Source of the DNA: Aldrovandia affinis
Lineage: Eukaryota > Chordata > Actinopteri > Notacanthiformes > Halosauridae
DNA: 64,000 bases
Assembly (NCBI GenBank): GCA_029706075.1
Contig: JAINUG010000014.1
Coordinates: forward strand, 4,556,501-4,620,500
Direction of reading: 5' to 3'
The translations under genes were made by a program, and so were the position numbers. Under the pieces are notes generated by a model. It saw nothing but the letters and a program-made list of their open reading frames with translations, ran no database searches and was not told the origin of the DNA. Below are positions 32,201-35,200 of the stretch, piece by piece (position 1 is the stretch's first letter; each line of letters begins with the position of its first letter).

Positions 32201-35200
32201 CACAGCCCGTCCTGAGTGCAGTCTCTGCAGGCGCTGGGGCAGCGATGGCACTGTCCCTCTCTGGAGAAGTGTGCAGGCGGGCAGCTCTCTCTGCACTCGT
32301 GGGCCAGCTGGACGGCGGGCTCCACACAGCTGAGGCAGCGCGTGGCGTTCCTCTCGCACGACGCACACAACGGGGCGCAGCTCTGGCACACACCCTCCTC
32401 GGGGAACCCCCTGGAGACACCAGGAGAAAAGGGGGCGGGGACGGGGCAAGAGACAGAACCGGCCCAAACCAGTGTGTAATTTGGTTAGGAGTCTGACACA
32501 TTGACTCATTTTATGCTATTACATAGATGGAAACTATTTTGGGCGGCACGGTGGTGCAGTGGATAGCGCTGTCGCCTCACAGCAAGAAGGTCTCAGGTTC
32601 AAATCCAGGCCGGGGGCCTTTCTGTGTGGAGTTTGCATGTTCTCCCCGTGTCCGCGTGGGTTTCCTCCGGGTACTCCGGTTTCTTCCCACAGTCCAAAGA
32701 CATGCATGTTAGGCTAATTGGAGAGTCTAAATTGCCCGTAGGTATGAGTGTGTGAGTGAATGGTGTGTGTGCCCTGCGATGGATTGGCGACCTGTCCAGG
32801 GTGTATTCCTGCCTCTCGCCCGGAACGCATGCTGGGATAGGCTCCAGCCCCCCCCCGCGACCCTGACCAGGAATAAGCGGCTTAGATAATGGATGGATGG
32901 ATGGAAACTATTTTGGTTTAGTACTTTGCTCAGGAGTACAACAGCAGTGCAGATCTACGTGGGGCAGAATAAAGTATTGCTCATTACACTCAGGACCCCT
33001 GGCATAACACCATTCAGATGTGAGATGTGAGTTCCACGCAACACTGAAAAACGTGCAAAACGTCACAATAGTTTAATTCGCGAAGCTTTTGGTCCACAGA
33101 CCTTCGTGAGAGCATTCCCCAACGCCGTTGCTCTTTTTGGCCGTGCGAGTGGTCCTACTTTTTTTGCACAACACAATTCAGAAAAATGAGCAACGTTCCT
33201 CTGAAATGAATCGAAGAAGAATCTAGTCTAATCAGATCAGGTGATTCTTACATATCTTGCACATATATTTCTCATGGAAGAATGGTGTTGCATCCCTCCA
33301 ATAGAGTTCCAGCACTGAAGCTGTTCTGGTGACTCGTGGTGGACCAACGCCCTATTAAGACACTGTGTTGGTGTTTCATTTTAATTTTTTATTTTTTTAA
33401 ATACATTTATTTCTAAAAGATTTTCCAGTTTTTCTCCCAATTTGGTTGCCAATTATACCCTCTATTTATTTCAATTCCCCACCCCCACGAGTCCTCCACC
33501 CGTCCTCCGGGGCGAGACACTCATTCCGGGCCGATTGTTCTCGCCTCTTCCGAGACGGAAATTCTTCCACGGATGCCTTTTACCTTCTCCGCGACAGACT
33601 CATGCCGGCTCACCCTCCCTCCTCCCCCGGAGGCGGACAGCCAAATGCCGCCTCCGATCGGGGCTGACAACCAGGGCTGGTCTGGTAGAGACGCGGGTTT
33701 CGAACCGCGTCCCTGACAGGCAGCGCACACCACACCAAAGTGTGCCGCGTTAGACCGCTATGCCATCCGCCGCCCCAGTGTTTCCTTTGTTTGACCTGTA
33801 TCTACTCAATGTAGTTTGTGTTATGGTGACATCACATAGCGTCAGAGGCTAAAACACTCAAAGTAACAGACAGACAGACAGACCATGTTCTCAATAAAGA
33901 GCCATTGATGAACTCCCTCGAACCTGTAGCAGTGGGAGACGCAGCGCCCGGCCTCCAGGTACAGCTGGTTTTTGCGTCCGGACAGACACTTCTGACACTG
34001 CACCCCGTCCTCACACTGGACACACCCGGCCAGGCAGTCCTCACACCGCCCTGTCGTCATGTTCCCGAAACTGCCCTCTGGACACTTCTTCAAACACGTC
34101 TGGCGAGCAGCCAGGAACCAGTCTGGAGAGACAGAGATACAGTCAGGAACCAGTCTGGACAGACAGAGATACAGTCAGGAGCCAGTCTGGACAGACAGAG
34201 ATACAGTCAGGAGCCAGTCTGGACAGACAGAGATACAGTCAGGAACCAGTCTGGACAGACAGAGATACAGGCAGGAACCAGTCTGGACAGACAGAGATAC
34301 AGTCAAGAACCAGTCTGGACAGACAGAGATACAGTCAGGAACCAGTCTGGACAGACAGAGATAGTCAGGAGCCAGTCTGGACAGACAGAGATACAGTCAG
34401 GAACCAGTCTGGACAGACAGAGATACAGTCAGGAACCAGTCTGGACAGACAGAAATACAGTCAGGAGCCTGGCTGGAGACAGGTATATCACACAGATAAC
34501 AGACAGGTATATCACACAGATAACAGACAGGTACATCACACAGGTAAGAGAGGTAAATCACAGAGGAAAGGGGTACATCACAATAGACAGGTGTAAAATA
34601 CAGATAAATGACAGGTAAACAGAAAGTGCTCATACCTCTCTCACAGGTGTTGCACTGGTTCTTTCCTGCACCGGAGCAGGACTTGCAGCTGGGGTGACAT
34701 TCTGCACACACATTCGCATCTGAGAAGAAAATTGCTATTACTATTATACTTCTAGTGGCTATGAATGCAGACGTCCATAGTAATGTGAGTATGAGAGTAC
34801 ACTCACACAGAGAGAGGAATACGAGCGGTTATAACCCTCCCATTTAGACCCCACCATGTGTGCAATAATGGTCTGGCCACCCAAAGAGGGTAAGGTCTTA
34901 ACAATGACGTGTGTCTAAGTGAGTATATGAAAAATAAAACAGCACAAGGGCCTGGCAGCTTCCAAAATCCAAAAGACAGGGAATGAGGTGGAGCCACCAC
35001 AGCTGTATGAAGCAGTTATGAGGCCCACTTAATGACCAGAGAGGGACAGCAGAGGACACACACACACACACACACACACACACACACACACACACACACA
35101 CACATGAAGCAGTTATAAGGCCCACTCCAGGCAACCGCTCTAGCCCTGGTTTATTTACCTCCATTTAGGAGCAGTTCGTTTTTTGTCAGACAAACAAAAT

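Follow-up and report, generated by a model that had tools for sequence, protein, structure and literature searches.

In Aldrovandia affinis, a 32-bp segment lying across the 3' splice site of an exon of what is likely a PCSK5-like gene is tandemly repeated about eleven times, the copy adjacent to the exon being the one that continues the reading frame. The array lies in a window of 64,000 nucleotides (contig JAINUG010000014.1), in which the gene is encoded on the minus strand; positions are those of the window unless a locus is named. TRF delimits the array at 34108–34477 (period 32, 11.6 copies, 94% matches, score 649), in agreement with a preliminary description of the sequence that had placed about eleven 32-bp units at 34111–34475. 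The sequence CCAG/ACTGG (slash, splice junction) is present at eleven exact sites, one of which is the real acceptor; the similarity between units and exon boundary is thereby upheld, and the "about ten" decoys ahead of the real site are exactly ten. Neighbouring sites are 32 nt apart, except for one gap of 30, and their first exon bases fall at 34440, 34408, 34376, 34346, 34314, 34282, 34250, 34218, 34186, 34154 and 34122. The unit reads TATCTCTGTCTGTCCAG/ACTGGTTCCTGACTG on the minus strand, and six different sequences are found among the ten repeat units. Each had been said to carry a pyrimidine tract, CCAG and the first 11 bases of the exon; these bases, ACTGGTTCCTG, are perfect in six of the ten units and have a single mismatch in the remaining four. 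The base that follows them is G in the exon, A in nine units and C in one.

The exon that follows the array (number 15 in the count of the preliminary description) spans 33924–34122 on the minus strand and is 199 nt long, with start phase 1 and end phase 2; the exon start and phase are identical in the C2200 paralog. Exon 14 by the same count, from the exon reading, occupies 34636–34719 (84 nt, minus strand). The intron between them is 513 nt long, and its final ~355 bases are the 32-bp array. On the intron side of the array, a degenerate extra unit carries two CAGs at −350 and −346 (34468–34474, minus strand), with scores of 3.6 and 7.8, and TRF places a 24-bp × 3.7 intronic array alongside at 34477–34562 on the same strand. 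Elsewhere in the gene, a long compound intronic array with periods of 11, 21, 30 and 32 lies at 30239–31008. A 64-nt query comprising two units gave four matches in the 1.22-Gb genome, all within the array itself, an absence of other copies that is no proof of rarity.

The window contains the Cys-rich and membrane-tail exons of the gene, which were read as 18 exon segments from 63848 down to 25827. A short way upstream, on this contig and likewise on the minus strand, there are two P_proprotein matches, one of which contains a TGA. Pfam comparison of three window segments assigned no family to two of them and gave three weak Furin-type matches to the third, under the curated cut-offs. The name PCSK5, which the preliminary description had also proposed, therefore rests on the P_proprotein matches, the exon order, the Cys pattern and the likeness to the human long isoform. 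Long open frames on the plus strand at 11626–16100 and 60574–61350 resemble, by eye, a LINE-type retrotransposon and a Tc1/mariner-type transposase.

The real acceptor, at 34123/34122, is the sole one of the eleven sites that keeps the frame open. All ten decoys (first exon bases 34440 through 34154; 34154–34444, minus strand) lead to a premature stop, as foreseen in the proposal that any acceptor other than the last would shift the frame or meet a stop codon; even the decoys at +318, +192 and +96 nt, which preserve the frame by length, meet one all the same. In-frame use of a decoy was rejected, since none of the ten is open. Recursive splicing was also rejected, all eleven sites reading AG/AC and not AG/GT. 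The equivalent exon of the C2200 paralog starts TTCCAG/GCAGGTTCCTGACTGCG and has a single acceptor, in the phase of window exon 15; a related exon in C1911, read by eye, apparently starts in phase 1 as well. The C2200 exon carries TTCCTGACTG, like most array units, and window exon 15 carries TTCCTGGCTG, which suggests that the array may preserve an older form of the exon 15 start.

Acceptor strength was scored with a weight matrix trained on 31 further family acceptors in two paralogs: 16 of the 18 window exons (the e08 acceptor was not placed and real exon 15 was omitted) and 15 of the 17 listed C2200 exons (e08 and e15 were dropped). Leave-one-out scores of these acceptors range from −2.7 to 15.1, with a median of 9.4. 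The real acceptor, at 11.8, is the strongest of the eleven, and the ten decoys score 5.6–8.3. This advantage arises mainly because the base at −6 (34128, minus strand) is C in the real site and G in all ten decoys; the end units of tandem arrays often diverge in any case. A typical decoy outranks 14 of the 31 true acceptors. By this measure the decoys are plausible splice sites, yet each is weaker than the real acceptor.

A yTnAy motif, the branch-point consensus, is found at −19 to −21 in ten of the eleven sites, nine of them in the form CTGAC. For the real acceptor, the predicted branch point is the CTGAC at 34142–34146 on the minus strand (A at −21), which lies within a copied exon start and is the sole yTnAy between −12 and −47; the search extended about 15 nt beyond the AG exclusion zone, following the rule in PMC1431707. 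Most units may thus amount to a near-complete 3' splice module, with a branch-like motif, a pyrimidine tract and an AG. Were the branch point at −21 used, the correct AG would be the first one downstream and no decoy would have to be skipped, while a branch point upstream of the array should let an early decoy win. The preliminary description had held that correct splicing must skip past a ladder of decoys. With a candidate branch point in nearly every unit, that compulsion need not exist, since branch-point selection or exon definition may settle the choice. Nor need the ladder be a special obstacle: 21 of the 31 other family acceptors have an AG within 40 nt upstream (beyond −12), and an AG at −32 is therefore ordinary. 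The idea that RNA structure hides the decoys was unsupported, the array folding no better than shuffles (z = 0.28). Predicted accessibility is poor at all eleven CCAGs (0.002–0.029; median of 16 further acceptors, 0.046; p = 0.008, with units that are not independent of each other), and several decoys are at least as open as the real site (0.018).

These features lead us to a reading that we consider probable, namely that the array is a mirage-type minisatellite, that it is tolerated and, apart from some noise in splicing, largely silent, and that the last acceptor is the one mostly used. It is favored by the stops that follow all ten decoys, the greater strength of the real acceptor, the branch-like motif in ten of eleven sites and the ordinary nature of an upstream AG. 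In a genome rich in minisatellites, slippage or unequal exchange would have produced the array, without selection for a switch. Each copied exon start would then provide a branch-point-like CTGAC ~21 nt ahead of the next CAG, turning the choice of an AG into the choice of a branch point. The last module would win most often for two reasons: it alone stands before the real exon, where exon definition could act, and its pyrimidine tract, with C at −6, is the best of all. Use of a decoy would yield a premature stop, and transcripts with premature stops are degraded by NMD; mostly correct splicing, with errors cleared by NMD, is what we would expect.

The stops after all ten decoys, together with decoy scores that lie inside the range of true acceptors, would also suit a poison-splicing rheostat, in which the decoys are appreciably used, their products pass to NMD and the number of units tunes the output of the long isoform. 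We regard this as unlikely: conservation was not seen, the C2200 paralog having one acceptor at that place; the placement of arrays on boundaries is not above chance (see below); and amphioxus mirages are reported to leave regular splicing undisturbed (PMC3087553, PMC3902484).

A second boundary array is found in the same gene, where TRF identifies a 65-bp × 4.1 repeat of the e01 end and its donor at 63522–63787 (minus strand). The real exon ends at 63746 and the decoy ends are at 63681, 63616 and 63551. Among these four donors the real one reads /GTTTCAG, with C at +5, and the three decoys have G at that position. Exon e02, in turn, contains an in-frame TAG at 62085–62083 (minus strand gene), at the position of a lysine in the C2200 paralog; the e02 donor is GC, against GT in that paralog. 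All three features could be taken as signs of a decaying gene copy, that is, of relaxed constraint on the PCSK5-like paralog, with arrays piling up as splicing no longer matters. This appears improbable to us, as the remaining 17 listed exon segments are open over their full length, the base change behind the TAG also creates a GTAAGT donor in phase 1 that is able to join e03 in frame, and the C2200 paralog, which is without that TAG, has a boundary duplication too. The TAG may have arisen recently as a lesion, may stem from an error in the assembly or may mark a new splice site. Its presence in an upstream exon casts doubt on the state of this gene copy and limits what can be claimed about the effects of the acceptor ladder on the protein. 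The interpretation of the array as tolerated and mostly silent is weakened by this TAG, by the plausibility of the decoys, by a matrix of 31 sites from two paralogs, and by an advantage of the real site that lies mainly in one base.

Duplications at or near exon boundaries are found at other loci of the genome. At the end of its e01-equivalent exon, the C2200 paralog carries a 45-bp duplication, in two copies, that reads on in frame (L025, about 4700–4800); it is absent from the TRF output, and an exact search returned one copy, the other, which differs by one base, having been read from the sequence. The same paralog contains a 29-bp × 2.2 array (L026, 4704–4767) that falls a few bases short of a 3' splice site and repeats the tract upstream of the acceptor, with the junction itself excluded. 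A survey of EGF_CA exons covered 30 loci out of 150 scored matches (889 candidates). TRF arrays lay over the donor in two of the 30 (L054 and L060) and over the acceptor in none; acceptors were placed in all 30, while donors were picked automatically, with none found in L057 and some possibly wrong. The two arrays, on other contigs, occupy 1593–1846 of L054 and about 1617–1682 of L060 (reverse complement of the locus), and at L054 the exon end is present in three further copies, with GT after each.

Enrichment of arrays at exon boundaries was tested in the PCSK5-like region and rejected. Of 36 exon ends, three are covered by arrays with a period of at least 10, namely two splice sites and the end of the last exon at the stop codon, while circular shifts gave 3.54 on average (P = 0.67); in this test some exon-end coordinates are approximate and redundant TRF rows are omitted. 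The 32-bp array is far beyond chance as an array, but its placement on a splice site is not, and the sober reading is that minisatellites abound in this genome and that some of the arrays seed at the edges of exons. A mostly silent array is further favored by this chance-level placement, by the single acceptor in C2200, by the donor arrays in this gene and at EGF exons and by the undisturbed splicing reported for amphioxus. Copy number inflated or invented during assembly has a precedent, as the draft version of the BflGb6 mirage was apparently aberrantly assembled (PMC3087553). Such an artefact is highly improbable here, given the sequence diversity of the units, the location of the array in a 9.3-Mb contig and the boundary duplications at other loci. 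The preliminary interpretation stands as to unit content, decoys and stops, is likely right as to the gene, and is not borne out as to the forced skipping of the ladder; the superior strength of the real acceptor, the donor array in the same gene and the published class of "mirages" were absent from it.

With eleven nearly identical 3' splice modules set at even intervals ahead of one exon, the locus is a natural experiment on how the spliceosome picks one of several almost equal acceptors, to which the donor array adds a 5' counterpart within one transcript. If the small survey (2/30 EGF exons) holds, boundary minisatellites are more than a curiosity of lancelets and, in a vertebrate, could contribute to the gain and loss of introns and to polymorphic splicing. 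We put forward, tentatively and with some doubt, a broader proposal: that boundary minisatellites are widespread and ongoing in this genome, that duplication of exon starts made new branch points, the branch point of the PCSK5-like exon being duplicated coding sequence, and that unit number sets splicing fidelity. On this proposal, the gene would present 3' splice sites of nearly identical sequence in a natural titration series.

Near-identical tandem splice sites in a vertebrate gene are known from intron 7 of human factor VII (F7), where 5' splice sites are contained in 37-bp repeats and oriented scanning leads to use of the most upstream one (PMC6627357). The donor array at 63522–63787 has this F7 layout, whereas the array at 34108–34477 carries 3' splice sites. 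Factor VII was the one vertebrate precedent found in our literature search, and others may be in print. The AG exclusion zone, or scanning, model addresses which AG after the branch point is chosen (PMC1431707); here AGs recur every 32 nt, which gives the real acceptor an exclusion zone with the length of one unit.

The closest counterparts are the "mirages" of amphioxus, described as minisatellite-like duplications of intron-exon boundaries (PMC3087553). Those of BflGb6 join the 3' end of an intron to the start of exon 2 in units of 150–160 bp, with six and three units in two haplotypes, and by RT-PCR the authors saw no suggestion of interference with regular splicing (PMC3087553). Boundary duplications are also described in lancelet PGBD5, in a paper that cites Adh and TnC as cases without aberrant mRNAs (PMC3902484); the units of the amphioxus Adh3 mirage are 10–72 bp (PMC3087553, PMC3902484). 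Like these, the arrays reported here consist of tandem units that include an exon boundary, 3' or 5', and have the authentic copy beside the exon. The 32-bp array lies across an intron-exon boundary, and its units contain the intron end, the splice signal and the exon start; it belongs to the mirages, its unit being compact and nearly self-contained and its host a vertebrate. It differs from the amphioxus examples in that about eleven acceptor units of 32 bp, most with a branch-like motif, are found in a fish, against 150–160 bp in BflGb6. What is new with respect to the known mirages is the fish host, the short units, the donor mirage in the same gene and the donor arrays at two of the 30 EGF exons surveyed.
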